This document shows, piece by piece, positions 8,890 to 64,000 of a DNA stretch of 64,000 bases. The notes beneath the pieces are model-generated. The model was not told the DNA's origin, made no database searches, and saw only the letters and a program-made list of their open reading frames with translations. Numbering within the stretch: the stretch's first letter is position 1; each line of letters starts with the position of its first letter. Source of the stretch: Agrococcus baldri (GTDB lineage: Bacteria > Actinomycetota > Actinomycetes > Actinomycetales > Microbacteriaceae); assembly GCA_007988785.1 (NCBI GenBank), contig BJUU01000003.1, forward strand, positions 1 to 64,000. The letters run 5' to 3'. Both the position numbers and the translations under genes were made by a program.

Positions 8890-8894
8890 GCCGA

Positions 8895-8941
8895 CCGCAC
8901 GCAGAAGGGCCAGCCGCGAGGCTGGCCCTTCTGCCGTGCGG
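8895..8941. terminator. Bidirectional intrinsic terminator
   Basis: A near-perfect inverted repeat: CAGAAGGGCCAGC pairs with GCTGGCCCTTCTG around a 6-nt loop, and the stem continues outward with CCGCAC/GTGCGG after one bulged base. It sits between the convergent DUF4190 and sdaA genes and can serve both strands. Confidence 0.85.
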
Positions 8942-8955
8942 CGCGGCGCGGCGGG

Positions 8956-10467
8956 TCAGCACTCGATGTAGGCGACGGCGAGCCCGCCGAGCGCGGTCTC
9001 CTTGTACTTGTCGCTCATGTCAGCGCCTGTGCGCCGCATCGTCTCGACGGCGGTGTCGAGCGAGACGTAGTGGGTGCCGTCGCCCTGCTTCGCCATGCGG
9101 GCGGCGTTGATCGCCTTCACCGATGCCATCGCGTTGCGCTCGATGCAGGGGATCTGCACGAGCCCCTTGATGGGGTCGCACGTGAGGCCCAGGTTGTGCT
9201 CGATGCCGATCTCTGCCGCGTTCTCGATCTGCTCGGGGGTCGCGCCCAGCACGGCGGCGAAGCCGCCGGCGGCCATCGCGCACGCCGAGCCGACCTCGCC
9301 CTGGCAGCCGACCTCGGCGCCCGAGATCGAGGCGTTCGACTTGATGATGATGCCGATCGCGCCGGCCACGAGCAGGAAGCGCACCTGCCACGAGAGCTCG
9401 TCGTCGACGCAGTTCGCGAAGCGGTCGGCGTAGTGCATGACGGCGGGGATGATGCCGGCCGCGCCGTTCGTCGGCGCCGTCACGACCCGCGCGCCGGCGG
9501 CGTTCTCCTCGTTCACGGCGAGCGCGTACAGGTTCACCCATTCCATGCCCTCGAGCAGGTCCGGCCGGCCTTGCTTGGGCGCGGCGTCGCGGTCGAGCAG
9601 CTTCGCGTGCCACTCCTTCGAGCGGCGCTTCACATCGAGCCCGCCCGGCAGCACGCCCGGCGTCTCGATGCCGTGCGCGACGCACTCCTGCATGACCTCC
9701 CAGATGCGCTCGAGCTGGGCGATCGTCTGCTCGCGCGGCCGCCAGGCGGTCTCGTTCTCGAGCATCAGCTCGGCCACCGACATGCCCGTCTCGCGGCAGC
9801 GGGCGACGAGCTCGTCGCCGTGCGTGAACGGATGCGCGACCGGGTGCAGCTGCTCGGCCGGCGCGGGCACGGGCGAGAGCACGTCGCCCTCGTCGTGCCG
9901 CATGACGAAGCCGCCGCCGATCGAGTAGTAGCCGGCCGAGGCGATGGTGTCGTCGGATGCGTCGTAGGCGGTGATGCGCAGGGCGTTCGGGTGCTCGCGG
10001 CGCACGGTGAGCGGGCGGAAGACGAACACCTTGGCCTCGTCGAAGGGCACCGTCAGGCGGCCGCCGAGCGAGAGCTCGCCGGCGGCGCGGATCTGCTCGA
10101 GCGTCGCCGTGATCTGCGGGGTCTCGACCGTGTCGGGCGCGAGGCCCGAGAGGCCGAGCATGATCGCCGTGTCGGTGCCGTGCCCCGAGCCGGTGGCGCC
10201 CAGCGATCCCAGCAGGTCGACGCGCAGCCGCACGATCTCGTCGAACCTGCCCGAGGCATCCGCCTGCCCGATGAAGTCGAGCGCCGCCCGCATGGGGCCG
10301 ACGGTGTGCGACGAGGAGGGGCCGATGCCGATCTTGAACAGGTCGAGCACCGAGAGCGACTCGAAGACCGGCGCCGTCGCGGTGGCATGGCTGCCGACCT
10401 CGGTGGGCTCGGTCGCGCGTCCGTTCGTGATCGACGGCGTGCCGTCGGTCGTGGCGTGCGAGGTCAC
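8956..10467 (-). CDS. sdaA: L-serine ammonia-lyase (single-chain, iron-sulfur type)
   Basis: Deaminates L-serine to pyruvate and ammonia using an oxygen-labile 4Fe-4S cluster. The 503-residue protein is the fused form: a beta domain starting SVLDLFKIGIGPSSSHT near residue 38, and an alpha domain with the cluster-type cysteines in EVGCQGEVG, LTCDPIKG and IPCIERNAM. A ~35-residue Thr/Glu-rich N-terminal extension is unusual but carries no domain I recognise. GTG at 10467 is the likely start, preceded by GAAGGAG. A downstream start near the conserved LDLFKIG segment cannot be fully excluded. Confidence 0.95.
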   Translation of the reverse strand: MTSHATTDGTPSITNGRATEPTEVGSHATATAPVFESLSVLDLFKIGIGPSSSHTVGPMRAALDFIGQADASGRFDEIVRLRVDLLGSLGATGSGHGTDTAIMLGLSGLAPDTVETPQITATLEQIRAAGELSLGGRLTVPFDEAKVFVFRPLTVRREHPNALRITAYDASDDTIASAGYYSIGGGFVMRHDEGDVLSPVPAPAEQLHPVAHPFTHGDELVARCRETGMSVAELMLENETAWRPREQTIAQLERIWEVMQECVAHGIETPGVLPGGLDVKRRSKEWHAKLLDRDAAPKQGRPDLLEGMEWVNLYALAVNEENAAGARVVTAPTNGAAGIIPAVMHYADRFANCVDDELSWQVRFLLVAGAIGIIIKSNASISGAEVGCQGEVGSACAMAAGGFAAVLGATPEQIENAAEIGIEHNLGLTCDPIKGLVQIPCIERNAMASVKAINAARMAKQGDGTHYVSLDTAVETMRRTGADMSDKYKETALGGLAVAYIEC

Positions 10468-10513
10468 GATCAGCTCCTTCGCTTGCGTGCGCGCCGGAGC
10501 CGAGGGTGGTGGC

Positions 10514-10720
10514 TCAGGCGGTGCGGCCCGTCTGGTACTCGTCAGCGTAGTCGTCGTCCGAGGACTCGTACTCGGCGTAGTCGGCCCACTTGTCGACCTC
10601 GCCCGTGGCTGTGCCGCCGCCGAGCTCTGCCTGCAGCGCGTTGTAGTTCACGTCGGGGCTGTACGACTTCAGCTCTCGAGCGATCTTCGTGTGCTTTGCC
10701 TTCTGGCGACCACGACCCAT
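10514..10720 (-). CDS. DUF3073 small protein
   Basis: A 68-residue protein with the DUF3073 signature MGRGRQKAKHTKIARELKS, then YNALQAEL and an acidic C-terminus (DYAEYESSDDDYADEYQ). The basic head and acidic tail suggest nucleic-acid or ribosome association, but function is unknown. The family is actinobacterial. In related genomes the gene is often near purine genes; here it is upstream of sdaA on the same strand, 46 bp before the sdaA start. Confidence 0.93.
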   Translation of the reverse strand: MGRGRQKAKHTKIARELKSYSPDVNYNALQAELGGGTATGEVDKWADYAEYESSDDDYADEYQTGRTA

Positions 10721-10865
10721 GCTGGACCCCCTTGCTACTGGCGTCGGCTCTGCGGCCGACGAACGGTGGGAGAACTTCCTCTAATCAAGTCCAACCTCCA
10801 TCGTACCATCGCGCCTGTCGATCGGCTGTGTCCCGGCATCGGATGTGGACAGCGTTCTGCGCCGC

Positions 10866-11240
10866 TCAGGCTGCCGGGGTGGGCACCAGCACGGCGCCGA
10901 GCAGCAGGCCGAGCGCCGCGGCGATCGTGCCGCCCACGAGCGTGAGCGCCATGGTCGCGAGCGCGCGTCCCGCACGGCGCCGCTCGAGCTGCTCGACCGC
11001 CTGCACGGCGAACGCCGAGTAGGTCGAGAGGCCGCCGCAGAAGCCGGTGACGAGGATCGCCTCCCAGGCGCCGCTCAGCGGCAGGAGGCCGGTGGCGATG
11101 CCGGCGAGCAGGCTCGCGATCACGTTGACGCCGGCCGTCGTGCGCTCCGGCCGCTCGCTGCGCACCAGGCCGGCGAGGAAGCGCGCCGCGGCGCCCAGCC
11201 CGCCGGCGAGCGCGATGCCGAGCAGCTCGAGCGGGCTCAC
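10866..11240 (-). CDS. crcB: Fluoride efflux channel, subunit 2 (CrcB/Fluc)
   Basis: A 124-residue four-helix membrane protein of the Fluc family, which exports fluoride as an antiparallel dimer. Visible landmarks are AGGLGAAARFLAG near the N-terminus, the pore-helix motif GFCGGLSTYSAFA (family GGxTTFSTF), and a conserved Asn in VNVIASLLAG. GTG at 11240 overlaps the stop of the upstream crcB gene as GTGA, so the two subunits are translationally coupled. Paired genes of this kind usually form heterodimers in Gram-positive bacteria. Confidence 0.92.
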   Translation of the reverse strand: MSPLELLGIALAGGLGAAARFLAGLVRSERPERTTAGVNVIASLLAGIATGLLPLSGAWEAILVTGFCGGLSTYSAFAVQAVEQLERRRAGRALATMALTLVGGTIAAALGLLLGAVLVPTPAA

Positions 11241-11629
11241 GCGGCCCGCCCCTTCGCCAGCCGATGGCCGAGCGCGAGCCCCGCCCAGGCGGCGAGCAGG
11301 CAGGCGACGAGCATGCCGAGCGCGAGCGCGATGCCCGGCAGCGCCGGGATGAGCGTCGGCCAGCCGCTGCTCGCCGCGGCGGCGACGACGCTCGCGACGG
11401 CGACGGCGCTGAAGCTCGTGAAGCCGCCCAGCAGGCCCGCGCCGATGCCGTGCCGCACCCACGCGGGGGCGTCGGCGAGCGCCGCGACCGCGACACCGAG
11501 CAGCGCCGAGCCGACGGCGTTGATGGCCAGCAGCATCCACCACTCCGGCACCGCGAGCTGCAGCAGCGCCCGCGCTGTGGTGCCGAGCGCGCCGCCGACG
11601 AGCACGGCGGCGACGGAGCGGAGGAGCAT
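11237..11629 (-). CDS. crcB: Fluoride efflux channel, subunit 1 (CrcB/Fluc)
   Basis: First gene of the fluoride-channel pair: 130 residues, four hydrophobic helices, N-terminal GGALGTTARALLQ, conserved Asn in AINAVGSALLG, and pore motif GGFTSFSAVA. It is divergent from the MerR regulator. I looked for the conserved fluoride-riboswitch sequence upstream and did not find it, so regulation is unknown. Both subunits keep the polar-track residues expected of functional Fluc channels. Confidence 0.93.
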   Translation of the reverse strand: MLLRSVAAVLVGGALGTTARALLQLAVPEWWMLLAINAVGSALLGVAVAALADAPAWVRHGIGAGLLGGFTSFSAVAVASVVAAAASSGWPTLIPALPGIALALGMLVACLLAAWAGLALGHRLAKGRAA

Positions 11630-11757
11630 GTCGCCAGGGTATGCGGCGCGGGGTCACAGGATCGTAGGTCGTCCTTCGACACGGTGAGCGCCTTGCGGCG
11701 CACACCGGCTCAGGAGCCGGAGCGCGCGGCCGGAGGCCGCACGCGTCACGAGACCGG

Positions 11758-11782
11758 GGTTGACGTTGACGCAGCGTCAACC
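11758..11782. promoter_or_regulatory. Predicted MerR-family operator
   Basis: GTTGACGC-A-GCGTCAAC (11765-11781) is a perfect palindrome with one central base. An extra GGTTGAC on the left also mirrors GTCAACC on the right. It lies 16 bp before the MerR/TipA start, where autoregulatory sites of this family commonly sit. Inference from symmetry and position only. Confidence 0.6.
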
Positions 11783-11797
11783 AATACCGTCGTCGTC

Positions 11798-12538
11798 ATG
11801 GAGTGGTCGATCCAGCGCATCGCGAAGCTCGCCGGTGTCTCGAGCCGCACGCTGCGGCACTACGGCACCGTCGGGATCCTCGAACCTGCCCGTACCGATG
11901 CGGGAGGGATGCGCTGGTACGACGAGGCATCGCTCGGCCGGCTGCAGCGCATCCTGCTGCTGCGGGGGCTGGGCGTGGGGATCCCCGCGATCGCCGCGAG
12001 CCTCGAGCGCGCATCCGACGAGGAGGCGCTCGCGGCGCACCTCGTCGACCTCGAGCGCGAGGCAGACCGCGTCCAGAGGCAGATCCGCGCCGTCGAGCAG
12101 ACGCTGCGGGCACGAGAGAAGGGAGCCGTCATGACGGCAGAGCAGGCGCTCGACGGGTTCGACCAGAGCCAGTACGAGCAAGAGGTGACAGAGCGCTGGG
12201 GCGCCGACGCGTGGAAGCGCGGCCAGGACTGGTGGAAGAGCATGTCCGATGAGGACAAGCGCGCCTTCCAGCAGGAGCAGGCCGCGATCGTCGCGGACTT
12301 CGCGGCAGCCAAGGAGGCCGGCGAGCCGGTCGACTCGCAGGTCACCCAGGCGATCGTGCTGCGGCACTACCGCTGGATCGGCGGGGCCTGGCAGCAGGGC
12401 GAGCCGAACCTCGAGTACTTCGCGAACCTCGGCGACATGTACGTCGCCGACGACCGCTTCGGCGCCAACTACGGCGGCCGGGAGGGCGCGGAGTACGTGC
12501 GCGACGCGATGCGCGCGTTCGCGGCGAAGCGCCGGTAG
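11798..12538 (+). CDS. MerR family regulator, TipA-like with TipAS domain
   Basis: A 246-residue regulator. Residues 1-70 form a MerR winged helix-turn-helix: SIQRIAKLAGVSSRTLRHY, then the wing segment GGMRWYDE. A coiled-coil dimerisation helix follows (residues ~75-110). The C-terminal ~125 residues match the TipAS thiopeptide/multidrug-sensing fold, with the family-typical Q-Y-E-x-E-V-x-x-R-W-G pattern (QYEQEVTERWGADAW) and NLGDMYVADDRF. It probably activates drug-tolerance genes on binding a hydrophobic antibiotic. The RND exporter gene 76 bp downstream is an attractive target, though a hairpin terminator separates them. Confidence 0.92.
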   Translation: MEWSIQRIAKLAGVSSRTLRHYGTVGILEPARTDAGGMRWYDEASLGRLQRILLLRGLGVGIPAIAASLERASDEEALAAHLVDLEREADRVQRQIRAVEQTLRAREKGAVMTAEQALDGFDQSQYEQEVTERWGADAWKRGQDWWKSMSDEDKRAFQQEQAAIVADFAAAKEAGEPVDSQVTQAIVLRHYRWIGGAWQQGEPNLEYFANLGDMYVADDRFGANYGGREGAEYVRDAMRAFAAKRR

Positions 12539-12553
12539 GTCACGAGACCAGCG

Positions 12554-52332: not shown

Positions 52333-53601
52333 ATGTCGGAGCCGCGCGCATCGAGCGTCGACACCTCGTCGATGGCGCCCCGCCACGGTCGGCTGCGCCG
52401 CCACTCGGGCATCGCGCACGTGCTGCGCTGGGCGGCGCTGAGCGTCGCCGTGCTGCTGGTCGCCGGCATCGGCGTGATCGGCGTCTCGGTGCTGCGGCTC
52501 TCGACCGGCCTGCAGACCGTCGAGCTGGGCGGCGAGGTGCCGCAGGCGCAGGGCGGCTTCGCCCCCTACGAGGGCGGCTTCACGATCCTGCTGGTCGGCT
52601 CCGACCAGCGCACCGGGCAGGGCGCCGAGTTCGGCGAGAACTCGTACGGCGAGGGGATGCTGAACGACGTCACGATGCTGTTGCACGTGAGCGACGACCA
52701 TCAGCAGGCGCGCGTCGTCTCCTTCCCGCGCGACCTGATCGTCGACTTCCCCGAGTGCGAGGACCCGGAGACCGGCGTCACGCAGCCCGCGGCATCCGGC
52801 GTGCAGTTCAACCAGGCGCTCTCGCGCGGCGGCCTCTCCTGCGTGGCCGAGGTCGTCTCGGACATGACCGACATCGAGGTGCCGTACGCCGCGATGATCA
52901 CCTTCACCGGGGTCATCAGCATGTCGAGCGCCGTCGGCGGCGTGCCGGTGTGCTTCGCGGGCCCGATCGACGATCCGTGGACGGGGCTCGAGATCCCCGA
53001 GGCCGGCACCTACGACCTCGAGGGCGAGCAGGCGCTGCAGTTCCTGCGCTCGCGCCACGGCGTCGGCGACGGCTCCGACCTCGCGCGCATCTCCTCGCAG
53101 CAGGTGTTCCTCTCGTCGCTCGTGCGCACACTGCAGTCGGATGCGGTGCTCACCGACTTCACCAAGCTCTACGCCATCTCGCAGGTCGCGCTCGAGAACA
53201 TGACCCTGTCGTCCGGCCTGGGCAACGTGGGCACGATGGTGTCGATGGCGCGGGTGCTCGCCGACATCCCGCTCGAGACCATGCAGTTCGTGCTCTACCC
53301 GAACGTGCCCGACGGCAGCCGCGTCTACCCCGATGAGGAGGCGGCCGACGAGCTGATGCGGCGCATTCGCCTCGATCTGCCGATCTCGCTGGGGGAGGAT
53401 TCGCTCGGCATCGGCTCGACCGACGAGACGCCGGGGCCGACCGAGACTCCGGGCGCGACCGAGACACCCGGCGCCACCGAGACGCCCGAGCCGACGGAGA
53501 CGCCCGGCGCCACCGAGACGCCGGAATCGACCGAGGGTCTCGAGGGCGTCATCGGCCAGGACGCCTCGCAGCAGTCGTGCGTCGTCCCCTACGGCAGCTG
53601 A
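52333..53601 (+). CDS. LytR-CpsA-Psr (LCP) family protein
   Basis: A 422-residue membrane-anchored phosphotransferase that attaches wall polymers to peptidoglycan. After a ~30-residue cytosolic head there is one TM helix (VLRWAALSVAVLLVAGIGVI). The LCP domain then shows ILLVGSDQRTG, LNDVTMLLHV, VVSFPRDLIVDF and FLRSRHGVGDGSDLARISSQQ, which supply the Arg/Asp residues for polyprenyl-phosphate binding. The Ser/Thr/Glu-rich C-terminus has GATETP-type repeats. ATG at 52333 follows GGAGGG. Confidence 0.95.
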   Translation: MSEPRASSVDTSSMAPRHGRLRRHSGIAHVLRWAALSVAVLLVAGIGVIGVSVLRLSTGLQTVELGGEVPQAQGGFAPYEGGFTILLVGSDQRTGQGAEFGENSYGEGMLNDVTMLLHVSDDHQQARVVSFPRDLIVDFPECEDPETGVTQPAASGVQFNQALSRGGLSCVAEVVSDMTDIEVPYAAMITFTGVISMSSAVGGVPVCFAGPIDDPWTGLEIPEAGTYDLEGEQALQFLRSRHGVGDGSDLARISSQQVFLSSLVRTLQSDAVLTDFTKLYAISQVALENMTLSSGLGNVGTMVSMARVLADIPLETMQFVLYPNVPDGSRVYPDEEAADELMRRIRLDLPISLGEDSLGIGSTDETPGPTETPGATETPGATETPEPTETPGATETPESTEGLEGVIGQDASQQSCVVPYGS

Positions 53602-53606
53602 CCTCC

Positions 53607-53709
53607 CGCTGGTCGAGGAGCGCGAGGCGCAGCCGCGCGCGTCACGAGACCCTCCGTGCCGCCCCGCTGGTCGAGGAGCGCGCGGCGCAGCCGCACGCGT
53701 CACGAGACC
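53607..53709 (+). repeat. Two ~46-bp dispersed-repeat copies
   Basis: CCGCTGGTCGAGGAGCGCG then GGCGCAGCCGC and GCGTCACGAGACC occurs at 53607-53652 and 53664-53709 with few differences. Its right end, CGTCACGAGACC, also occurs at about 11745-11756 and 12539-12549, so this is a dispersed repeat family of the genome. Confidence 0.85.
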
Positions 53710-53758
53710 CCTCCCACCCTTTGCTAGACTTGCCGCTGGCCTGCTCTCGGCGGGCCGA

Positions 53759-53847
53759 GGAGACGTCGCATAGTCCGGCCTAGTGCACCACCCTGCTAAG
53801 GTGGAGTCCCCAATAGGGGACCGAGGGTTCAAATCCCTCCGTCTCCA
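53759..53847 (+). tRNA. tRNA-Ser (anticodon GCT)
   Basis: Acceptor GGAGACG/CGTCTCC, anticodon stem CCACC/GGTGG with loop CTGCTAA (GCT), variable arm TCCC-CAATA-GGGA, T-arm GAGGG-TTCAAAT-CCCTC. The base after the acceptor stem is A, whereas serine tRNAs normally have G there. CCA is not encoded. The tyrosine integrase gene begins directly downstream, so the 3' end is the probable att site. Confidence 0.93.
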
Positions 53848-53854
53848 CGTCGGA

Positions 53855-53898
53855 ATGGCCCTCGACTTCCTAGGAAACTAGCGGAAGTCGAGGGCCAT
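53855..53898. terminator. Perfect 16-bp hairpin after tRNA-Ser / integrase
   Basis: ATGGCCCTCGACTTCC pairs with GGAAGTCGAGGGCCAT around a 12-nt loop, between the tRNA and the convergent integrase gene. It is a good bidirectional terminator. Confidence 0.85.
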
Positions 53899-53925
53899 CC
53901 TCGTGCGGAGGCCACGGCGACTCAG

Positions 53926-55014
53926 CTATAACTCAGCGCTCGCACGAGTCATCGCGGCATCGATACGGTCTGAAAGCGCCTCAAGGTCGTCATCGAACAG
54001 ATCTGCATACCTGTCCAGGGTCATGGTCGCCGAGGCGTGACCGAGCATCCGCTGGACCGCCTTCACATTCGCGCCAGAGCTCACTGCGATCGATGCGGCG
54101 GTGTGTCGCAGATCGTGCAGCGTCATCGGAGCGATGCCGGCCGTCGTGAGCGCCGTCTTGAACCACGACCGGGAACCCGCTGAAACCCGGGTGCGCCGCA
54201 TGTGGAAGCCGTGCCCGTCATCGAAGACAAGAGCATCGTTGGCCTTGTCGCTCGTCAGCTTCACCAGCATCGGAACGAGTAGAGCAGGGATCGGCACCCA
54301 TCGGGCCGCCCCGGTCTTGGTGTCGCCGACGTGGATCTCGCCATGCACTTCGACCGCAGCGCGAGCGACATGGATTCGCCGCCGCACGAGATCGAGATCC
54401 CCTCCGCGAAGCTCGATCGCTTCACCCCATCGGAGGCCGCACAGGCCCAGCGTCAGCACAAGCGGCTCCCTCGGACCGGATGCGACTGCCAGCGCGAGGA
54501 GTTCGCGCGTCGTGAGGTAACGATGCTTGCGCTGCACGGTCTTCGCTGGCAGTCGGACGCCTCGCGCCGGGTTGACAACGATCTTGCGGTCCCGCTCCGC
54601 GACGTCCAAGATTCCGCTCAGAACGCCGTAGGCGCGCTTCACGACCGTCGACGACATGCCGATGCCTGACGCCCATTCCTGGACCGCTGAGTGCCGCACG
54701 AGCCCGACTGGCACCGTTCCCCATCTCGGCTCGACGTAGTTGCGCCATGATGCCTCCAGTGGCGCGTAGCTCGACGGTTTGAGTGTCGATCGCTTAGTCC
54801 TCAGCCACGGTTCGGCAAGGCTGCCGATGGTGTGCTTGGCCTCGCGCGGATCGATGTACTGTCCGCTGCTGATCGCAGTCGTTACGGACGCAAGGTAACC
54901 GTCGGCGTCGCTCTTGCGTGTGAACCCGCGCTTCTCCCGCTGCCGTCGCTCAGGGTCCCGCCAACGCACGAGGTAGCGCGCCGGCTTCTCGGAGTACCGG
55001 ACGACGCTACCCAT
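53926..55014 (-). CDS. int: Tyrosine recombinase/integrase
   Basis: A 362-residue phage-type integrase from ATG 55014 (MGSVVRYSEKPARYLVRW). It has an N-terminal AP2-like arm-binding domain, a SAM-like core-binding domain (residues ~65-150), and a catalytic domain with Arg in GLCGLRWGEAIEL, His-x-x-Arg in TLHDLRHTAAS, His in MLGHASATMTL and the nucleophile Tyr in LDRYADLF. All catalytic residues are present, so it should be active. Its 5' end overlaps the upstream HTH gene by 8 bp. It abuts the tRNA-Ser 3' end, the expected target class. Confidence 0.95.
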   Translation of the reverse strand: MGSVVRYSEKPARYLVRWRDPERRQREKRGFTRKSDADGYLASVTTAISSGQYIDPREAKHTIGSLAEPWLRTKRSTLKPSSYAPLEASWRNYVEPRWGTVPVGLVRHSAVQEWASGIGMSSTVVKRAYGVLSGILDVAERDRKIVVNPARGVRLPAKTVQRKHRYLTTRELLALAVASGPREPLVLTLGLCGLRWGEAIELRGGDLDLVRRRIHVARAAVEVHGEIHVGDTKTGAARWVPIPALLVPMLVKLTSDKANDALVFDDGHGFHMRRTRVSAGSRSWFKTALTTAGIAPMTLHDLRHTAASIAVSSGANVKAVQRMLGHASATMTLDRYADLFDDDLEALSDRIDAAMTRASAEL

Positions 55015-55582
55015 CGCGGAACCAGTTGTCGCGGAACCATCGGTTCTCCTTGCGCGCTCTCGCGACCATCCGCGTCGCCGTGCTCTGACTGACACCCAGG
55101 TACGTCGCCACCGTTGCCAATGGCGGCCAGTTGCCGAGCTTCGCGAGCGTGTAGATCATGCCCACGACCTCTGTGTCGTCCGCTTCTTCACCAGGCTTCA
55201 GCTCGACTGCACGCAACGCCTCGAGGCCGCCAGCCTTCACATCTTCTAGCCACTCCAGTGCGCTCACGGGGGGCGTGTCCTCGGACAATCCGGACTCGTC
55301 GATGGTCACAAGGTCGCGCAGCGCGACCTCTGCGATCACCTCTTGGACCGTGACGGTGCGCAGCACCTTCGCCGTGACCTCTGAGCCTTCTGACCGGCGT
55401 GACACCTTGACGCTCGAAGCGACGTACTGGGAGATGCTGCGATCCAAGTCGATGACGATCTCAACGTCATAACCGTCGCGTTCCTCGATGTGTATGGCTC
55501 GCTCCTGGCAGTTGATCGCGAAGCCCATGAAGGTGGCTGGGCCTTCACCGGCCACAGCTAGCTCTGGCTCATAACGGGTCAT
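55007..55582 (-). CDS. Helix-turn-helix protein of the element
   Basis: A 191-residue protein whose C-terminus ends in a sigma/MarR-like HTH, VATYLGVSQSTATRMVARAR. The N-terminal two thirds are predicted alpha/beta without a recognised domain. Genes of this type often lie just upstream of integrases in actinobacterial integrative elements. ATG at 55582 is chosen; starts 16-17 codons further upstream exist but would run across the divergent promoter. It overlaps the integrase gene, so the two are co-transcribed and it may control integration. Confidence 0.65.
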   Translation of the reverse strand: MTRYEPELAVAGEGPATFMGFAINCQERAIHIEERDGYDVEIVIDLDRSISQYVASSVKVSRRSEGSEVTAKVLRTVTVQEVIAEVALRDLVTIDESGLSEDTPPVSALEWLEDVKAGGLEALRAVELKPGEEADDTEVVGMIYTLAKLGNWPPLATVATYLGVSQSTATRMVARARKENRWFRDNWFRDG

Positions 55583-55693: not shown

Positions 55694-55912
55694 ATGGCTA
55701 GCCCGAACGTTTATCTCAGGCCCGAGGACGTTTGCGAGATGATCCCCGGTATCAGCAAGGGGGCGCTCTCGCAGCTCCGCTACACGGGTCGCGGACCCAA
55801 TTTCTTGAAGCCAACGCCGAAGACCATCCTCTACAGGCGCGAGGACGTCATCGCTTGGCTGGAGAACTCGGAGCACACCCGCACCGACCGCCCGACGCGG
55901 GTCTCGGCTTGA
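55694..55912 (+). CDS. Excisionase-like HTH DNA-binding protein
   Basis: A 72-residue protein with a winged HTH of the MerR/AlpA-excisionase type (YLRPEDVCEMIPGISKGAL, then ILYRREDVIAWLE). ATG at 55694 is preceded by AGGAGG. Divergent from the integrase pair, the arrangement expected of an integration/excision switch. Confidence 0.85.
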   Translation: MASPNVYLRPEDVCEMIPGISKGALSQLRYTGRGPNFLKPTPKTILYRREDVIAWLENSEHTRTDRPTRVSA

Positions 55913-56040: not shown

Positions 56041-56634
56041 ATGAGTTGGACCAAGCTCTCGGATGATTTCACCGATCGCGCCGACCTGGCCGGTCTCGAC
56101 CCGGCCGACCGCTGGCACTACCTCGCGATGATCCAGCTCTGCTCACGAGGCGAGCACCTGACGGGCGAATTGCGAGCAATCGACGCGAGGCGCGCATCTG
56201 ACCACGAGGACCCAGCAGCAGCAGTCCAGCGGATCGCCGCGGCCGGGCTTCTCGAAGTCACCGGCACGACCGTTCGCGTAGTGGAGATCGACGAGCACAT
56301 CCCTCCGCCCTCGGTCCGGATGAAGGCCGATGCCGACAAGCGCCGCAAGCGCCGCGAGCGTGCACACAAGGCAGGCGATCACCATCTGTGTCTGCCTGAT
56401 CACTGCACGAGTGCTGCACCGCTCTCGTCACGCCCGGAACCTCGTGACGTCACGCGTGACCCCGGGACGGGACGGGACGGGACAGGGCGGGCCTTTGCGC
56501 GAGCAGCTATTCAGACTGAGCAGGCCAACAAGAACGCAGGCGAGATCACGGGATGGGCGACTGCAACCCCAGGACAGGCTGCGACCGTCAACTTCCCCCC
56601 GCCGCCGTACACCGGAACCGAGGAAGCCGCGTGA
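56041..56634 (+). CDS. Element replication/DNA-binding type protein, hypothetical
   Basis: A 197-residue protein. Residues ~1-90 look like a winged-helix domain (MSWTKLSDDFTDRADLAGLD; AAAVQRIAAAGLLEVTG), followed by a basic stretch (KADADKRRKRRERAHKAG) and a Pro/Thr-rich tail. This start is typical of DnaD-like or replisome-organiser proteins in actinobacterial phages and integrative plasmids, and it lacks any Walker motif. The role in replication is inferred. It overlaps the next small gene as GTGA. Confidence 0.55.
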   Translation: MSWTKLSDDFTDRADLAGLDPADRWHYLAMIQLCSRGEHLTGELRAIDARRASDHEDPAAAVQRIAAAGLLEVTGTTVRVVEIDEHIPPPSVRMKADADKRRKRRERAHKAGDHHLCLPDHCTSAAPLSSRPEPRDVTRDPGTGRDGTGRAFARAAIQTEQANKNAGEITGWATATPGQAATVNFPPPPYTGTEEAA

Positions 56635-56924: not shown

Positions 56925-56951
56925 CCCATCGGGGCAGTAGCTGACGCACCT

Positions 56952-56989
56952 CACCCGCGCGCCCCACCCCTAGAGGGGTGGGGCGGGTG
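56952..56989 (+). terminator. Intrinsic terminator before cargo gene
   Basis: GCCCCACCCC pairs with GGGGTGGGGC around a 4-nt loop, with a second outer stem CACCC/GGGTG. It separates the replication-type genes from the cargo gene. Confidence 0.75.
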
Positions 56990-57044
56990 CGGTGCGGTGC
57001 CGGCGCATTTGCTGTGAGGGTCGCCGGAACGCCAGCATTGCTCC

Positions 57045-58403
57045 ATGCCCGAAGAAGTCTTGAATCCGCAGGATCGCCCTCGAGTTCTGGTAATCGTCGA
57101 GAACGATGACCTCCGAGAAGAAATCAGACCCATTGCACACTGGGGCGGATCACTGGAGGAGCATGCGGAGGTCCGGTCGATCGCCTGGTCGGAGTACGAC
57201 GTCATCATCACGGACTTGAGCCCCTACAGGTCCTTGGCTTCGCACCTTCCCCTGCAGCGATGGATCGCTGATGGCGTCCCTGTGTTCTACATGATCACTC
57301 CCGGGCGCGACCACGAGACGGTAGACCGAGGACTTGAGCGGAAGAACCGCGGCGCGGGCACCCTTGTGAAGGTGAACAGCCCCGGCAGACAGGTCGCCAT
57401 CGAGGAGGGAGCCCTGTCCTCCGACGAGGCGGCCCTCGCTCGCTCTACATTGAGCACCGACCTGTCCGATCGGCCGTCGCAATGGGGTCTAGGCATGCGA
57501 GAGTCTTTCAGCGAGCCACCCTGTCTTGTCATCACCCCCCTGCTCCTCGGACCCAAGCGGATGGCACTTGCGGGCACCTACGACCGCGGAGACGGCGTCA
57601 CTAACTGGTTCATGCCCCGAGACGCGAGTCTCCTGCCCTGGCTTCGCCTCGCGTTCGAACGATGGCGTCGAGAACGCCCCAATTCGTTCCCCAGCGCGCC
57701 GGACTGGCAACACTCGAGGGCATGGCAGTCCAAGGCTGAGGAGAAAGCGGCATCAACTGTTCAGTCCGCTGTGGTGGCGCTCGCCGCTGCGCAGGCGGAA
57801 CACGATCGCGTGGTGGCCGAGGCGACCGCCGAGTTGGTCGAAGCCCGCTCGATCGCCGACCGGGGGCAGCGACGCCTGCTTACGGCGTCTGGTGCTGAAC
57901 TCGTCGCCGCCGTCGCGGACGCACTGCGGCTCTTCGAATTGGACGTCCTGTCGATGGATGAGGACACCTCAGACGCTCCCAAGCACGAAGACCTGCGAGC
58001 CTCAGCCTCGACTGTGACCGCCATCGTCGAAGTGACAGGCACGAAGCGCGGCGTGCCCCAGGTCAAGTGGACAAAGCTCACGACACACCTGGCCAACTAC
58101 CTGAGACAACAGGATGCAGATCAGCGCGCGGTGCCATGGCTTGTCGTAAACCAGCACGTCGAGCTCGAGCCTCAATCGCGACCTCAACTATGGAACGCGG
58201 ACTTCGTTGCCGTGATCGAGGAATCGGGAGGGATGGCGATCGAAAGCCCCGCGCTCTTCGTTCTGGCCGAGGCTGTGTCCCAAGCCCACGTTGCAGCCGA
58301 CGAAGTCCGGACGCTGCTGTTCGAGACGCGCGGCGTCCTCGACCTGCAAGGCGCTCAACAGTTCCTGGCTGAGCAGATCGAGGCGAAGCCCGGCACCTCC
58401 TAG
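57045..58403 (+). CDS. Cargo protein with predicted PD-(D/E)XK nuclease-like C-terminal domain
   Basis: A 452-residue protein of unknown function. Residues ~12-85 look like an alpha/beta (receiver-like) module (PRVLVIVENDDL; EYDVIITDLS). Residues ~90-215 are unassigned, and ~225-290 form a coiled coil rich in Ala, Glu and Lys. Residues ~290-452 read like the coiled-coil-plus-nuclease architecture seen in many defence proteins: GAELVAAVADALRLFELDV, then E315-D316 in HEDLRA, and IVEVTGTKRG with E329. In that family the E-x-K lysine is expected at position 331, which is Thr here; K334 might replace it. If catalytically dead, it would be a binding or sensing protein. Isolated, monocistronic, own upstream terminator: a typical position for element cargo, such as a defence gene. 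Confidence 0.55.
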   Translation: MPEEVLNPQDRPRVLVIVENDDLREEIRPIAHWGGSLEEHAEVRSIAWSEYDVIITDLSPYRSLASHLPLQRWIADGVPVFYMITPGRDHETVDRGLERKNRGAGTLVKVNSPGRQVAIEEGALSSDEAALARSTLSTDLSDRPSQWGLGMRESFSEPPCLVITPLLLGPKRMALAGTYDRGDGVTNWFMPRDASLLPWLRLAFERWRRERPNSFPSAPDWQHSRAWQSKAEEKAASTVQSAVVALAAAQAEHDRVVAEATAELVEARSIADRGQRRLLTASGAELVAAVADALRLFELDVLSMDEDTSDAPKHEDLRASASTVTAIVEVTGTKRGVPQVKWTKLTTHLANYLRQQDADQRAVPWLVVNQHVELEPQSRPQLWNADFVAVIEESGGMAIESPALFVLAEAVSQAHVAADEVRTLLFETRGVLDLQGAQQFLAEQIEAKPGTS

Positions 58404-58834: not shown

Positions 58835-59200
58835 TCAGCTGATCCTGGCGACGAAGGCCTCTGCCCCTTCCAGATGCCGCATGAGCTTGTCGCGGCGACG
58901 GATCGACTCGACTAGGAAGTAGGAAGCCCGCTCAGGCTCCATCTCGGCGAGCGGATCGTTGGGGGACGCCTCCGCTGCGCGCACCAGTTCGGCCATCTCC
59001 TCGAGCGTGAAACCCATGGGCTTCATGCTGCGGACCAGCATCACCTGCTGCTCATCGGACGTCGTGTACAGGCGGAAACCGCCGCTTGTTCTTCCCGAGG
59101 CCCGGACGAGGCCGACTTCATCCCAGTGGCGAAGCGTCCGGAGCGAGAGGCCCGTGCGTTCGGCGAGTTCGCCGATGTGCATCATCATCTCGTCGGCCAT
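58835..59200 (-). CDS. MerR family transcriptional regulator
   Basis: A 121-residue regulator. The MerR winged HTH is HIGELAERTGLSLRTLRHW near the N-terminus, followed by GGFRLYTTSDEQQ and a coiled coil. The C-terminal part is short (no cysteine or metal-binding motif), so the inducer is probably not a metal. ATG at 59200 is preferred; AAAGGGTGG precedes it. It is divergent from the SulP gene, with a near-palindromic operator between. Confidence 0.92.
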   Translation of the reverse strand: MADEMMMHIGELAERTGLSLRTLRHWDEVGLVRASGRTSGGFRLYTTSDEQQVMLVRSMKPMGFTLEEMAELVRAAEASPNDPLAEMEPERASYFLVESIRRRDKLMRHLEGAEAFVARIS

Positions 59201-59217
59201 CAGCCACCCTTTCAACT

Positions 59218-59237
59218 CTACCCTTACGTTAGGGTAG
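59218..59237. promoter_or_regulatory. Predicted MerR operator
   Basis: CTACCCTTAC-GTTAGGGTAG is a 20-bp inverted repeat with one mismatched pair (9 of 10), 18 bp upstream of the MerR start and 136 bp upstream of the SulP start. Classic MerR-family dyad placement; could control both genes. Confidence 0.7.
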
Positions 59238-59372
59238 TGTATCGCTCGTCGGATCCAGCGCTCATCACCGCAACCTTGCCGGTCGGCTGGACCGGCCCGC
59301 GCGTCGACGCGCCCCCACTCTTCGTCCGTCGCTTCGGCACGTCCGCGCGAACCCCCATAACCCAGGAGCCTC

Positions 59373-60893
59373 ATGGCAATCAACACCCCTGCCCTCGACC
59401 GGGCGCGCTACCGCGACAACCCATCCGTCTGGAAGGTGCTGCGCAGCCCCAAACTGCTGACGCGCGAGTCCCTCGCCGGCCTCGTCGTCGCCATGGCCCT
59501 TATCCCCGAGGCCATCTCGTTCTCGATCATCGCCGGCGTCGACCCGCGCGTCGGCCTCTTCTCATCGTTCGTCATGGCCGTGTCTATCGCGTTCCTCGGC
59601 GGCCGGCCCGCGATGATCACCGCCGCAACGGGCGCCATCGCCCTCGTCATCGCACCCGTGGCGCGCGAGTACGGACTCGATTACTTCATCGCGACGGTGA
59701 TCCTCGCCGGCCTCATCCAGGTCCTGTTCGGAGTGCTCGGCGTCGCCAAGCTCATGCGCTTCATCCCCCGCAGCGTCATGGTCGGCTTCGTCAACGCACT
59801 CGCGATCCTCATCTTCATCGCTCAGGTGCCTCACCTGCTCGGCGTCTCCTGGCTCGTGTACCCGCTCGTCGCGGTCGGCATCCTCATCATGGTGCTGATG
59901 CCGCGGCTCACCAAGGTGATCCCCGCCCCGCTCGTGGCCATCGTGCTGCTCACGGGCGCCGTGCTCGTGTTCGGGTTTGGCGTGCCGAACGTGGGCGACC
60001 AGGGTGAACTGCCTCGCAGCCTCCCGGAGCTGTTCATCCCGAACGTCCCTCTGACGCTCGAGACGCTGGGCATCATCGGCCCGTACGCGATCGCCATGGC
60101 ACTCGTGGGCCTGCTCGAGTCACTCATGACTGCGAAGCTCGTCGACGACGTGACCGACACGCACTCCGACAAGACTCGCGAGTCCTGGGGTCAGGGCGTC
60201 GCGAACGTCCTGTCGGGCTTCTTCGGCGGCATGGGCGGTTGCGCCATGATCGGTCAGACGATGATTAACGTGAAGGCCTCCGGCGCGCGCTCGCGGGTCT
60301 CGACCTTCCTTGCGGGTGTCTTCCTGCTGGTGCTGGTCGTGGGGCTGGGCGACGTCGTCGCGCTGATCCCGATGGCGGCGTTGGTCGCCGTGATGATCAT
60401 CGTGTCCGTCGCGACGTTCGACTGGCACAGCATCCGTCCGTCGACGCTGAAGCGGATGCCGATCAGCGAGACCGTCGTCATGCTCGTCACGGTCGTCGTG
60501 GTCGTCGCGACGCACAACCTTGCGATCGGCGTGATCGTCGGCGTGCTGACTGCGATGGTCGCGTTCGCGCGACGGGTCGCGCACTTCGCGAACGTCACGC
60601 GCGAGGTGCGGGACGACAAGGGCGTGAAGACGGCGTTCTATGACGTGCAGGGCGAGCTCTTCTTCGCCTCGTCCAACGACCTCACCACGCAGTTCGAGTA
60701 CGCGGATGACCCGGAGCGCGTCGTCATCGACATGGCCCGCTCGCACATCTGGGATGCGTCGACGGTTGCGGCGCTCGACGCCATCGAGACGAAGTACGAG
60801 CACCACGGCAAGCAGGTCGAGCTGCACGGACTCAACGAGGCGAGCGTCCACATGCGCACGCGCCTGACCGGCAACCTCGGCGCCGGACACTAG
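59373..60893 (+). CDS. SulP family anion transporter with STAS domain
   Basis: A 506-residue SLC26/SulP transporter: about 12-14 helices, LAGLVVAMALIPEAISFSI near residue 33 and ALVGLLESLMTAKLVDD in the mid-protein, and a C-terminal STAS domain (YDVQGELFFASS; VIDMARSHIWDAS) of ~110 residues in the cytosol. The substrate could be sulfate, bicarbonate or another oxyanion; the arsenic cluster next door raises the possibility of a resistance or competition role but does not prove it. ATG at 59373; it is divergent from MerR. Confidence 0.92.
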   Translation: MAINTPALDRARYRDNPSVWKVLRSPKLLTRESLAGLVVAMALIPEAISFSIIAGVDPRVGLFSSFVMAVSIAFLGGRPAMITAATGAIALVIAPVAREYGLDYFIATVILAGLIQVLFGVLGVAKLMRFIPRSVMVGFVNALAILIFIAQVPHLLGVSWLVYPLVAVGILIMVLMPRLTKVIPAPLVAIVLLTGAVLVFGFGVPNVGDQGELPRSLPELFIPNVPLTLETLGIIGPYAIAMALVGLLESLMTAKLVDDVTDTHSDKTRESWGQGVANVLSGFFGGMGGCAMIGQTMINVKASGARSRVSTFLAGVFLLVLVVGLGDVVALIPMAALVAVMIIVSVATFDWHSIRPSTLKRMPISETVVMLVTVVVVVATHNLAIGVIVGVLTAMVAFARRVAHFANVTREVRDDKGVKTAFYDVQGELFFASSNDLTTQFEYADDPERVVIDMARSHIWDASTVAALDAIETKYEHHGKQVELHGLNEASVHMRTRLTGNLGAGH

Positions 60894-60947
60894 CCGGATC
60901 TGCTGAGGGAAGGGGTCGCCGCATGGTCGGCGACTCCTTCGCTTCGG

Positions 60948-61334
60948 TCAGTCCACGAACTCCTCGGTGACCGCAGCGGCGACCGCCTCTCGAAGGGATC
61001 GAACGTGTTCGACATCCCAAGCGTCCGGGTCAGGGAAGCTCCACTCGATGAGCCGGTTGGGCGTGCCGGGGATGTCGAGTCCGGGCTTCATCGCGACGAC
61101 GACGTCGGCGCGCTCGACGTCGTCAGTCGTCACCTTGCGCGGCACGCGATCCGTGATGTCGAGTCCGAGCTCGGCGACGGCAGCTGCGACCGCTGGGTTC
61201 ACCGTGTCGGCGGGTGCGAACCCGGCCGAGGCGGCTGTGTAGCGCTCGCCAGCGAGAAGCTCGAGCAGGGCTGCGCCGAGCTGCGATCGTCCGGCGTTGT
61301 GCGTGCAGAGGAAGAGGACGGTGGGTGTAGTCAC
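60948..61334 (-). CDS. Low-molecular-weight phosphatase family protein (arsenate reductase-like)
   Basis: A 128-residue protein with the LMW-PTP/arsenate-reductase P-loop LFLCTHNAGRSQLG (C-x-x-N-x-G-R-S) at the N-terminus and the acidic-loop motif WSFPDPDAWD near the C-terminus. It probably reduces arsenate with mycothiol or acts as a phosphatase. GTG at 61334 overlaps the upstream oxidoreductase stop as GTGA. Last gene of the operon entering from the right. Confidence 0.9.
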   Translation of the reverse strand: MTTPTVLFLCTHNAGRSQLGAALLELLAGERYTAASAGFAPADTVNPAVAAAVAELGLDITDRVPRKVTTDDVERADVVVAMKPGLDIPGTPNRLIEWSFPDPDAWDVEHVRSLREAVAAAVTEEFVD

Positions 61335-62713
61335 GAGTTCGGCTCCTTCGTTCGGGTGCGGCTCCACTGCTGGCTCGCGACCTGGACGGCGTCCCAGGGT
61401 GATCCGAGCGGTGGTGTGTAGGACAGGTCGAGCTCGCCGATCTGCTCGACGGTCAGGCCTGCGAACAACGCGGTGGCGTAGGTGTCCACGCGCTTCGCTG
61501 TCTCCGTGCCGAGCCTGCCCACCAGTTGTGCTCCGAGTAGGCGGCCGTCGAGCTCGTCGCCCGTGACGCGGATGCTGATGGGCTGTGCACCCGGGTAGTA
61601 GCGCTTGTGGTCGTCGGCGACCGCCGCGGCCGTGCGCGGTGCGAGGCCGACGCCGCGGGCCTCATGATCGCGGAGACCCGTCCGGGCGGCGACCACATCG
61701 AAGACCTTCACGACCTGCGTGCCGACGCTCCCGGCAAATCGGGCGTCGCCACCGACTGCGTTCTCGCCGGCGGTTCTGCCCTGCTTGTGGCTGGTCGTGC
61801 CGAGCGGCAGGTAGGTCTCGCCGAGCAGGCGATGATGGGTGATGACCCCGTCGCCGGCGGCCCACACGTTCGGCAGGCCGGTGCGCATCGCGCGGTCGAC
61901 GACCACGGCATGCCCGGCGCCGAGTCGTGCGCCAGCGCGCTCGAGCAGCTTGGTGTTGGGGCGGACGCCGACGACAACGAGCACGAGGTCAGCAGCGCGA
62001 GAGAAGGGCTCGCCGCGCCGAGTGCCTCGGACGACCACGCCGCCGTCGGTCTTCTCGACGCCGACGACGGTCGAGTCGGTGAGCACCTCGACGCCGTGCT
62101 GCTCGATCTCGGTGCGGACGATCGCGCCGAGCTCGGAGTCCAGGGTCGAGAGCACTTCAGGGCCGCGCTGGATCTGCGTGACGGTCAGGCCGCGCATCGT
62201 GAAGGCCTCCGCCATCTCGAGGCCGACGTACCCGGCGCCGACGATGATCGCTCGCGTGGGCTGGTGCTCGTCCAGGAATCGCTCGAGCGCGAACGTGTCG
62301 CCCATGGAGTGCATGACGTGCACGCCGTCCTCAGGCGTGAGCGCGTCGAGCCCATCGATGCCCGCGCGCGTCGGAAGCGCGCCCGTTCCGATGATGAGCT
62401 CGTCGTAGCGCACCTCGGAGACGTGACCTCGCTCGTCGCGGACGGCGAGGAGACGTCGAGAGACGTCGATCTCCGTAGCTAGCGAGTCCAGCCGCAGGCG
62501 CATGCCGGTCGCCTCCAGGTCTGCGAGCGTGCGGTGCGCGAGTGACTGCCACGGCTGCACCTCGCCGGAGATGAAGTACGGGATCCCGCAGATGGAGTAG
62601 TTCGGGTACGAGTCGGCGACGACGACGGTGACGTCGACGGACGGGTCGAGCTCCCGAGCGCGCAGGGCCGCGGAGATGCCCGCATCACTGCCTCCGACGG
62701 CGACGACATGCAT
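61331..62713 (-). CDS. CoA-disulfide reductase-like FAD/NAD(P) oxidoreductase
   Basis: A 460-residue flavin disulfide reductase. The FAD-binding start is VVAVGGSDAGISAAL. The single active cysteine is in YSICGIPYFIS near residue 45, as in CoA-disulfide reductase and NADH oxidase. The NAD(P) loop is IIVGAGYVGLEMAEAF, and the FAD C-terminal segment is VWAAGDGVITHH. The dimerisation domain ends around residue 440. ATG at 62713 follows AGGAAGG. In arsenic clusters such enzymes keep thiols reduced. Cytosolic. Confidence 0.9.
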   Translation of the reverse strand: MHVVAVGGSDAGISAALRARELDPSVDVTVVVADSYPNYSICGIPYFISGEVQPWQSLAHRTLADLEATGMRLRLDSLATEIDVSRRLLAVRDERGHVSEVRYDELIIGTGALPTRAGIDGLDALTPEDGVHVMHSMGDTFALERFLDEHQPTRAIIVGAGYVGLEMAEAFTMRGLTVTQIQRGPEVLSTLDSELGAIVRTEIEQHGVEVLTDSTVVGVEKTDGGVVVRGTRRGEPFSRAADLVLVVVGVRPNTKLLERAGARLGAGHAVVVDRAMRTGLPNVWAAGDGVITHHRLLGETYLPLGTTSHKQGRTAGENAVGGDARFAGSVGTQVVKVFDVVAARTGLRDHEARGVGLAPRTAAAVADDHKRYYPGAQPISIRVTGDELDGRLLGAQLVGRLGTETAKRVDTYATALFAGLTVEQIGELDLSYTPPLGSPWDAVQVASQQWSRTRTKEPNS

Positions 62714-62724
62714 GGGGTGCCTTC

Positions 62725-63801
62725 CTATCGATAACGCGAGTCGATGTCTGCGACGGTGGCGCGTGCCATCCGCCCGACGCCGACCAGCGTGGCGGACGCC
62801 GGGCCGCACCAGTCGCCGTAGCCGACGAAGTAGAGACCCGGGACAGAGGCCGACGCGGTCGTGAGGTCGCTGCGCACCTGGGGCGCGCCTCCGGCGCGGT
62901 CGAGCTCGAGCGACAGCGCCGGCGCGAGGTCCGGCCGGAAGCCCGTGCACCAGATGACGACGTCCACGGGCGTCTCGGAGCCGTCCGTCCAGCGCACGCC
63001 CGTGGGGATGAGTCTGTCGAGATCCCAGCGCGCCCGCAGGCCGCGGCCTCGAGCGGCACGCACGGGCGGCAGTGCCACGATGTCGCCGAGATCCGCCACG
63101 CCTCGGCTGTGTCCCTCCACCTGTTGCGTCGCTGCGGCGAACAGCTCGCGTCCACCGACCTCGTCCGGCAGGAACCGCGGGATGCGTCTGGTGACCCAGG
63201 TCACGTCGGCGGACGGTTCGAGGTCCGCCGCGATCTGCGCGCCGCTGTTGCCTCCGCCGACGACGCACACGCGAAGACCCTCGAACTCGGCCGGCCCGGC
63301 GTAGCCGCGCGTGTGGAGCTGGCGGCCACCGAAGTCGTCGATGCCCGGGACAGACGGCACGAACGGCCGACCCCAGGTGCCCGTAGCCATGACGACCACG
63401 TCGGCGCGGCGCGTGCCGCTGGTCGCGTCGATCTCGAACCCGTGGTCGCCGCCCCGTCGGATCTGGGAGACCTCCTCGCTGTGCGAGACGGGCAGCTCGT
63501 ATCGCTGCGCATACGCGCGGAGGTAGTCGACCACCTCGGGAGCTGAAGCGGTGTCCTCGCGCGACTGGGGCATGCGCATGCCGGGCAGCGACGAGAAGTC
63601 GGCGGGCGAGAAGAGGCGCAGGCTCGGCCACATGTCGGCCCACGAGCCGCCTCCTTCGGGGCGGCTCTCGAGGAGCTCGAACTCCGGGGCCGACTCTCGT
63701 CGCCCTTGGGCGGCATCGCGACGCAGCCGCGCCAGGAAGTAGCCGACCGCGAGGGCAGACTGACCGCCGCCGATGACGGCGATCGACCGCGGCGCCGTCA
63801 T
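62725..63801 (-). CDS. Flavin-dependent monooxygenase/oxidoreductase (ArsO-like)
   Basis: A 358-residue FAD/NADPH enzyme of the flavin-containing monooxygenase group. The FAD loop is IAVIGGGQSALAVGYFL, a monooxygenase-like GSWADMWPSLRLFSP follows, the NADP loop is VCVVGGGNSGAQIAADL, and the second FAD motif is LYFVGYGDWCGPASATLVG. Proteins of this type occur in arsenic operons (ArsO/ArsH neighbourhoods) and may oxidise organoarsenicals or thiols. It lies 48 bp after the arsC fragment and 11 bp before the next gene, in one operon. Confidence 0.88.
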   Translation of the reverse strand: MTAPRSIAVIGGGQSALAVGYFLARLRRDAAQGRRESAPEFELLESRPEGGGSWADMWPSLRLFSPADFSSLPGMRMPQSREDTASAPEVVDYLRAYAQRYELPVSHSEEVSQIRRGGDHGFEIDATSGTRRADVVVMATGTWGRPFVPSVPGIDDFGGRQLHTRGYAGPAEFEGLRVCVVGGGNSGAQIAADLEPSADVTWVTRRIPRFLPDEVGGRELFAAATQQVEGHSRGVADLGDIVALPPVRAARGRGLRARWDLDRLIPTGVRWTDGSETPVDVVIWCTGFRPDLAPALSLELDRAGGAPQVRSDLTTASASVPGLYFVGYGDWCGPASATLVGVGRMARATVADIDSRYR

Positions 63802-63849
63802 GGGCGGGCCGATGCGGGCGGTCGGGCGATGCGACTCACAGCGTGGGTC

Positions 63850-64000
63850 TCAGACGGATGCGATGCCGAGCTGATCCAGCATGCGGTCGACGTGGACCGT
63901 GATCTCTTCGCGGACGCGTCGCACGTCCTCCGGCGTCGCGTGCTCGGGATCGTCGAGCTGCCAGTCCTCGTAGTGCTTCCCCGGGTAGATGGGGCACGCG
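63850..64000 (-). CDS. arsC: Arsenate reductase ArsC (LMW-PTP type), C-terminal part
   Basis: The last 49 residues of a gene whose start is right of the window. The segment CPIYPGKHYEDWQLDDP is a hallmark of the actinobacterial arsenate reductase/LMW phosphatase C-terminus (D-x-D-P acidic loop), followed by EDVRRVREEITVHVDRML. It heads the visible part of the arsenic-redox operon. Truncated by the window edge, not broken. Confidence 0.8.
   Translation of the reverse strand, partial: ACPIYPGKHYEDWQLDDPEHATPEDVRRVREEITVHVDRMLDQLGIASV

Follow-up and report, generated by a model that had tools for sequence, protein, structure and literature searches.

A candidate defence gene in a tRNA-integrated island of Agrococcus baldri, encoding a protein with a PD-(D/E)XK-like domain and a possibly relocated active-site lysine

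What kind of effector is encoded by an island gene whose product seems to end in a nuclease domain with threonine in the place of the canonical lysine, and is such a domain likely to cut? The question is raised by a gene of Agrococcus baldri in a stretch of 64,000 nucleotides (the window; contig BJUU01000003.1, assembly GCA_007988785.1), the product of which we call P0001. Here we describe this gene and its family, the co-variation of two active-site motifs, the borders of the host island, and the pattern of defence genes around the relatives. The best explanation in our view, held with middling confidence, is that of an island-borne effector made of one polypeptide, a PD-(D/E)XK nuclease with a relocated lysine and a probably defensive role.

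The gene, the parts of its product and its upstream flank are as follows.

56952..56994, + strand: GC-rich hairpin upstream of the gene, without a T tract (fold z of -3.25 over 56950-57040)
57045..58403, + strand: gene for P0001, 452 aa, an open frame from the first possible start
57045..57719, + strand: N-terminal alpha/beta region, residues 1-225 (from alignment, the secondary structure of a low-confidence model and a PDB profile search)
57732..57875, + strand: long helix and predicted coiled coil, residues 230-277 (from the low-confidence model)
57876..58280, + strand: PD-(D/E)XK-like domain, residues 278-412 (from a 28-row alignment, hhalign and a Pfam scan of 28 C-termini)

The frame is rated coding by the gene caller and has near-full-length matches in other genera, which bears out the first-pass annotation of a true gene of 452 aa at 57045-58403; the N-terminus can be aligned with that of the nearest relative. 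The coiled coil proposed there likewise fits the long helix of the low-confidence model. The upstream terminator is not confirmed: the hairpin lacks a T tract and was passed over by the terminator scan. P0001 matched nothing in Pfam (E<=10) or in PHROGs and NCBIfam (E<=1), and its sole match in PADLOC-DB 2.0.0 was Cas11e (E 0.0094, residues 211-307), with no match to a system protein; among 14 relatives the best match in the same database was PDC-S02 (E 0.0026, one member). A search of the open-access literature in one library returned no paper that we recognised as describing the family. Within the libraries and literature covered, these results are consistent with the earlier remark that no named defence system has this layout.

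By sequence comparison, the P0001 family is unnamed, patchy in distribution and actinobacterial. Relatives from other genera align with P0001 over almost the full length, the nearest (Pseudoclavibacter sp. AY1F1) at 30% identity, and the family comparison comprised 32 rows with P0001 counted in. Matches occurred in 7 of 249 genomes at the level of Microbacteriaceae and in 1 of 24 in the genus (own genome included in both), in 6 of 295 genomes of the genus of G526, 1 of 11 of the genus of G551 and 5 of 187 of the family of G287 (centre genome included in each), and in 11 of 394 genomes of a class survey (own or centre genome included); two further surveys listed 11 of 347 and 7 of 396 genomes, of which 6 and 4, respectively, were read as holding true relatives. 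No relative was found in phages, three scans of viral contigs yielding none and the 2 and 8 pattern-matching stretches of the last two encoding none. A plasmid search gave four weak matches in Streptomyces, and one scan of genome contigs only L029, the same locus as L003. Where one gene turned up under two names (for example L076 and L018, or L071 and L031), it entered the count a single time, and the degenerate L034, the truncated L064 and the fragment L077 were dropped before counting. Also dropped at that stage were L023-L028, L035 and L036, judged by eye to be other proteins (among L023-L028, for example, homoserine-dehydrogenase-like, RNase-PH-like and UPF0102-like ones).

The case for a nuclease turns on the C-terminal domain, in which the following residues matter.

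57990..57992, + strand: D316, motif II acid
58029..58031, + strand: E329, motif III acid (E or D in 32 rows; the motif-finding pattern itself required E/D)
58035..58037, + strand: T331, position of the canonical lysine
58044..58046, + strand: K334, the lysine favoured by the first-pass annotation, not conserved
58065..58067, + strand: K341, at E+12, candidate relocated catalytic lysine

Family profiles make PD-(D/E)XK the likely fold of this domain. When 28 C-termini were scanned singly in Pfam (E<=1), Mrr_cat was matched by 8 (best 3.6e-4), AHJR-like by 5, UPF0102 by 4, PDDEXK_9 by 3, and Hjc and Cas4 by 2 each; all of these, the families matched by at least two rows, we take to be PD-(D/E)XK families. 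Five of the 14 Pfam families matched are not nucleases (CHAD, Permuted_GreAB-C, MADF, DUF3717 and Glyco_transf_41, one row each), and the C-terminus of P0001 itself had no Pfam match (E<=1). In hhalign the family C-terminus scored 82.6% (E 9.7e-6) against ten Mrr_cat domains, and 1.0% against an integrase alignment used as control. Its best PDB profile match was ST1444 (E 0.086), with E-x-K in register, and three Hjc entries stood lower in the list. Similarity to PD-(D/E)XK members is thus present for the family profile and absent for P0001 alone.

Residues E315, D316, E329, T331 and K334 all proved to stand where they had been placed. D316 is invariant (28 of 28 rows), position 329 holds an acid (E or D), and E315-D316-R318 is invariant across one 10-row alignment, the relative L070, outside that alignment, having Q in place of R318. 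The absence of the canonical motif III lysine from P0001 does not bar membership of the superfamily, because exceptions have been published (PMC1913061 and PMC1189080, both in excerpt). Two AlphaFold models, built from P0001 and L029 only, were poor (pLDDT 42.5 and 57.0) and are short of one core strand, and Foldseek returned nothing at E<=0.001 for either. The low-confidence full-length model has helices at 284-295 and 339-354 and strands at 299-303, 324-331 and 366-369, and one of the three strands expected ahead of the second helix is not seen. The fold is accordingly unconfirmed by structure, and the earlier call of a PD-(D/E)XK-like C-terminus is sustained by the family profiles, and neither by P0001 alone nor by the models. 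The top Foldseek matches, Ras for the C-terminus and mixed noise for the full length, were discarded. P0001 is predicted to be a protein that probably cuts DNA or RNA.

For the N-terminal region, neither Pfam nor PDB profile searches gave a credible family. On 14 rows (E<=1) the best non-nuclease match in Pfam was at 0.039; on a 14-row alignment there were matches to DUF7260 (0.0026), Caudo_TAP (0.013) and CoA_binding_2 (0.096), by one row each. The sole PDB profile match was a ThiJ/PfpI protein (E 0.15), and the N-terminus of branch B had none in the same kind of search. Compared by hhalign, the N-termini of branches A and B scored 0.2% and are not alignable, and those of A and C scored 9.9%. 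Because these searches gave no credible family, a GATase/ThuA-like fold is only a guess.

The surroundings of the gene are those of an integrated island, of which the window holds the following parts.

53759..53848, + strand: tRNA-Ser(GCT), the last 26 bases of which (53823-53848) are repeated exactly at C3:81639-81664 and taken as attL
53926..55095, - strand: tyrosine integrase of the island (Pfam PF00589, Phage_integrase, 1e-20; PHROG phrog_1, 2.1e-59)
55007..55582, - strand: small ORF with a weak HTH match (Fe_dep_repress, E 0.0019, below cut-off)
55694..55912, + strand: excisionase-like HTH_17 ORF (Pfam 2.5e-5, 24.9 bits against a cut-off of 27; phrog_66, 1.4e-5)
56041..56634, + strand: 197-aa ORF with no credible family in Pfam, PADLOC, PHROGs or NCBIfam
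58835..64000, no single strand: left part of the other cargo (MerR, sulfate permease, ArsC-like phosphatase, FAD oxidoreductases), continuing to C3:81638

An integrase, a tRNA target and a direct repeat at both ends are all present, as in an integrative element seated in a tRNA gene. The integrase gene lies directly downstream of tRNA-Ser(GCT) and 2 kb upstream of the P0001 gene, and since an exact copy of the tRNA's final 26 bases stands in the same genome beyond the window, the island measures 27.8 kb. The 64-kb window, which contains only the leftmost 10 kb of the island, gave no further copy of the tRNA end. In the cargo at 58835-64000, MerR was named by Pfam and the rest from pooled Pfam matches and sequence reading. 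Over the whole span from the P0001 gene to the right end of the island, the genes called look like those for a MerR regulator, a sulfate permease, ArsC-like proteins and ArsR-like regulators, a transporter of ACR3 type, phosphate ABC components and proteins of thioredoxin type, most of these names coming from reading of the sequence. The other cargo thus looks like arsenic resistance, with arsenic-, phosphate- and sulfur-related genes. From the proximity of the integrase and the cargo beyond, the P0001 gene therefore sits in the integration end of a resistance-type island, in which no other defence gene was seen by eye. Its earlier description as cargo of an integrative element holds in this respect, and it is one of many genes of the island, not the sole cargo.

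Of 16 loci of genus-mates (L091-L106), 15 have a recognisable tRNA end, followed by other sequence that over as much as 1.5 kb had no match to the window's part of the island. L092 gave one 20-bp match outside the island, at 53178-53197. In G049, the stretch that follows the tRNA ends in 149 bases that match C3:83329-83477 at 87%, 1.7 kb past the second repeat; there are four other matches elsewhere, all short and weak. A 48-bp repeat occurs twice in tandem at 53605-53710 (spacing 58); this repeat matches very many places in genus genomes (e.g. G583, G598, G595) and represents a dispersed repeat family. Between tRNA-Ser and the integrase, at 53850-53900, lies an inverted repeat with perfect 15-bp arms, which differs from the GC hairpin that genus-mates have behind the tRNA and that also follows the right copy of the repeat. 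At L013 (about 8780-12540), a relative of P0001 is encoded between a tRNA gene pair and an integrase 52% identical to the window's, and that integrase is followed by small HTH-type ORFs similar to those of the window; the L013 element and the window's island seem to share an integration module.

Do the relatives keep company with defence genes? The 144 proteins encoded within about five genes of the P0001 gene and 14 relatives were pooled and set against 139 proteins from 14 control regions (in 13 relatives' genomes and the own one). Genes were called by custom scripts, with flanks of six and four genes at L011 and fewer than ten genes in all at L042 and L043; L045 was left out of the pool and G882, its contig being short, has no control region. 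PADLOC families matched at E<=1e-5 numbered 288 over the 144 neighbour proteins versus 8 over the 139 controls, both being counts of families, inflated by redundant models and pooled rather than assigned to single proteins. The two sets are unlike in kind: Wadjet JetC/JetD, type I M/S/R, a type II methyltransferase and PDC candidates occur among the best 25 of the 288, and the eight control families (mad3, mad8, ATPase-Toprim_I-B, MzaA, SspA, DndA, C3a194 and AriA) look to us mostly like kin of ordinary cell proteins. Wadjet at L039 and type I restriction-modification at L037 are our reading of pooled matches. Judged by eye, neighbours of two Thr relatives (L127 16801-18063 and 6527-8680, L126 10507-11238) include candidates for a TIR-domain protein, an AAA ATPase and one resembling AbiV. 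Four of ten neighbours scanned singly had matches. The gene of the nearest relative adjoins a DNA methyltransferase, with a homologue (residues 3-198) close by of PD-T7-3, which protected E. coli against phages (PMC9519451, in excerpt). A PDC-S14 match (7.6e-10) lies about 4 kb from the gene of L007, and DUF4238-Pers adjoins that of L008. At some loci (e.g. L014) no defence gene was seen by eye. Phage_integrase was found in 5 of the 144 neighbour proteins, a count that has no control figure because Pfam was run on the neighbours only. Of the association once proposed with both defence genes and mobile elements, the former half is borne out by the pooled survey with its controls, and the latter has this uncontrolled count. 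Such a context suggests a defensive role for P0001. As a probable nuclease of an unnamed family that is spread over bacterial mobile elements and defence genes, with one key active-site residue seemingly shifted, P0001 is a good candidate for an antiviral system of a new kind.

Of the 32 rows, 25 have the canonical K two places after the motif III acid (E+2), one has R, and six, P0001 among them, have T. All six T rows carry lysine at E+12, where each of the remaining 26 has another residue. This residue, K341 in P0001, is found at the start of the helix after motif III (motif IV) and is the sole lysine invariant in the six T rows; from +3 to +25 no other position has such a pattern, the next being +9 (5/6 versus 7/26). 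The motif was located by a pattern limited to an E or D with K, T or R two places on, so that other residues at +2 are uncountable; the pattern did not select on +12. In the close branch, K or R rows carry D at +12 in 10 of 11 cases (9 of 10 without the near-copy L125; L070 is counted by alignment, and L123-L125 were assigned to the branch by motif, not by tree), the exception, L019, having G. L070 has two extra residues, its D standing at raw +14 and aligned +12, and the count of 0/26 uses raw positions. Four rows fetched after the pattern had been recorded agree with it: L122 (T/K), L123 and L124 (K/D) and the near-copy L125 (K/D). A further active-site variant, with Arg for Lys in motif III (EVRG), occurs in L032 (G882).

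On a 13-row tree built without the motif columns and without L122-L125, P0001 is one of six long branches. Five T rows require two changes on this tree, the AU test does not reject one common origin for them (p-AU 0.266), and L019 is placed among the Thr rows yet has K at +2 and G at +12. The T/K association therefore rests on one or two events. A Fisher test with rows taken as independent gives 1.1e-6, which overstates the association because the swap may be a single event. On this evidence, a relocation of the lysine to K341 is moderately supported.

Loss of the motif III lysine could also have ended cutting, leaving a sensor or regulator that does no more than bind nucleic acid. T331 in the lysine's place would agree with such a dead nuclease, an inactivated PD-(D/E)XK domain is known from RecC (PMC1185551, in excerpt), and in L020, L021 and L061 the motif III E is replaced by D. 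Yet D316, the acid at 329 and K341 are retained in all six Thr rows, the four relatives compared (L122 being outside the comparison) are only 24-30% identical to P0001, and the fixation of a single new motif IV lysine is not what one would expect of decay; we think loss of activity fairly unlikely. An active nuclease with a relocated lysine is the reading we favour, because the swap matches a published proposal for DUF1626, in which the motif III lysine is substituted and is proposed to have migrated to the motif IV helix (PMC1913061, in excerpt). A correlated swap has been proposed for YhgA-like proteins in the same source, and lysine migration is listed for members of COG4636 (PMC1189080, in excerpt). 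Of the two options left by the first-pass annotation, migration is thus the better supported, with K341 as the site in place of Lys334. A migration to Lys334 (E+5) is hardly credible: the lysine exists in P0001, but +5 reads K, T, T, S, T and R in the six Thr rows and is also K in 2 of the 26 others.

A nuclease of this kind might instead serve the element itself, in excision, replication or the exclusion of competing islands, rather than phage defence. The closeness of the P0001 gene to the integrase in the window would fit this, as would the place of the L013 relative between its tRNA gene pair and integrase. We nevertheless judge it unlikely, given that other 19.5-kb stretches, such as those of L037 and L039, show defence-type genes and no integrase by eye, so that genes of the P0001 type are not tied to a single kind of element.

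In the defensive mechanism that we infer, the effector would be a single polypeptide carried by mobile islands. Its N-terminal alpha/beta domain would likely act as a sensor or partner-binding module, the coiled coil probably dimerises the protein, and the C-terminal PD-(D/E)XK nuclease would bind metal through D316 and E329; in the subfamily of P0001 the motif III lysine would have given way to threonine, with K341 of motif IV taking over its role. When triggered by a phage or a competing element, the protein would most likely cut nucleic acid, and thereby protect both island and host. More tentatively, we suggest that the proteins may form an undescribed family of single-gene immune effectors on mobile islands of actinobacteria, combining an N-terminal sensor fold new to defence with a coiled coil and a PD-(D/E)XK domain, one clade of which would have exchanged K in motif III and D in motif IV for T and K, respectively, and stayed active. 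The family would offer a small and directly testable case of active-site relocation, its K-type relatives (III K/IV D) to be set against the III T/IV K type. The gene would also be a well-bounded defence candidate missed by the libraries searched, and the island a case of such a candidate moving together with arsenic-type resistance cargo.

Among known systems, Mrr_cat (PF04471) is the best profile neighbour of the C-terminus, by 8 of 28 rows and the 82.6% from hhalign; the likeness is weak, with a best E of 3.6e-4, L031 at 16.3 bits below the cut-off of 21, and no match for P0001. Profiles of Hjc and the AHJR-like family (PF01870, PF18743) match weakly, with E-x-K in register in the ST1444 alignment, but these matches are insignificant singly, and the chains of ST1444 and Hjc, of 123-147 residues, are without the long N-terminal part. 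The effector domain of Can2 is, we assume, PD-(D/E)XK. Ligand-sensing CRISPR ancillary nucleases of the Can2 type share a general plan with P0001, an N-terminal Rossmann-type sensor joined to an effector domain (PMC7969007, in excerpt); unlike them, P0001 has no CARF match in Pfam, PADLOC, PHROGs or NCBIfam. From DUF1626 (PF07788, PDDEXK_10), P0001 differs by an additional N-terminal region of about 225 residues, and the PF07788 model matches one of 28 relatives (E 0.023) and not P0001. As far as the excerpted source describes them (PMC1913061), DUF1626 proteins have a patch of basic residues, whereas the Thr rows of the P0001 family share one invariant lysine, and their members come from archaea and a few other bacterial groups, in contrast to the actinobacterial P0001 family. 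Their coiled coil, which is followed by a PD-(D/E)XK domain, may have a counterpart in the long helix of the low-confidence P0001 model, and their motif III lysine is often Thr, with a proposed shift of the lysine to the helix of motif IV (PMC1913061, in excerpt).
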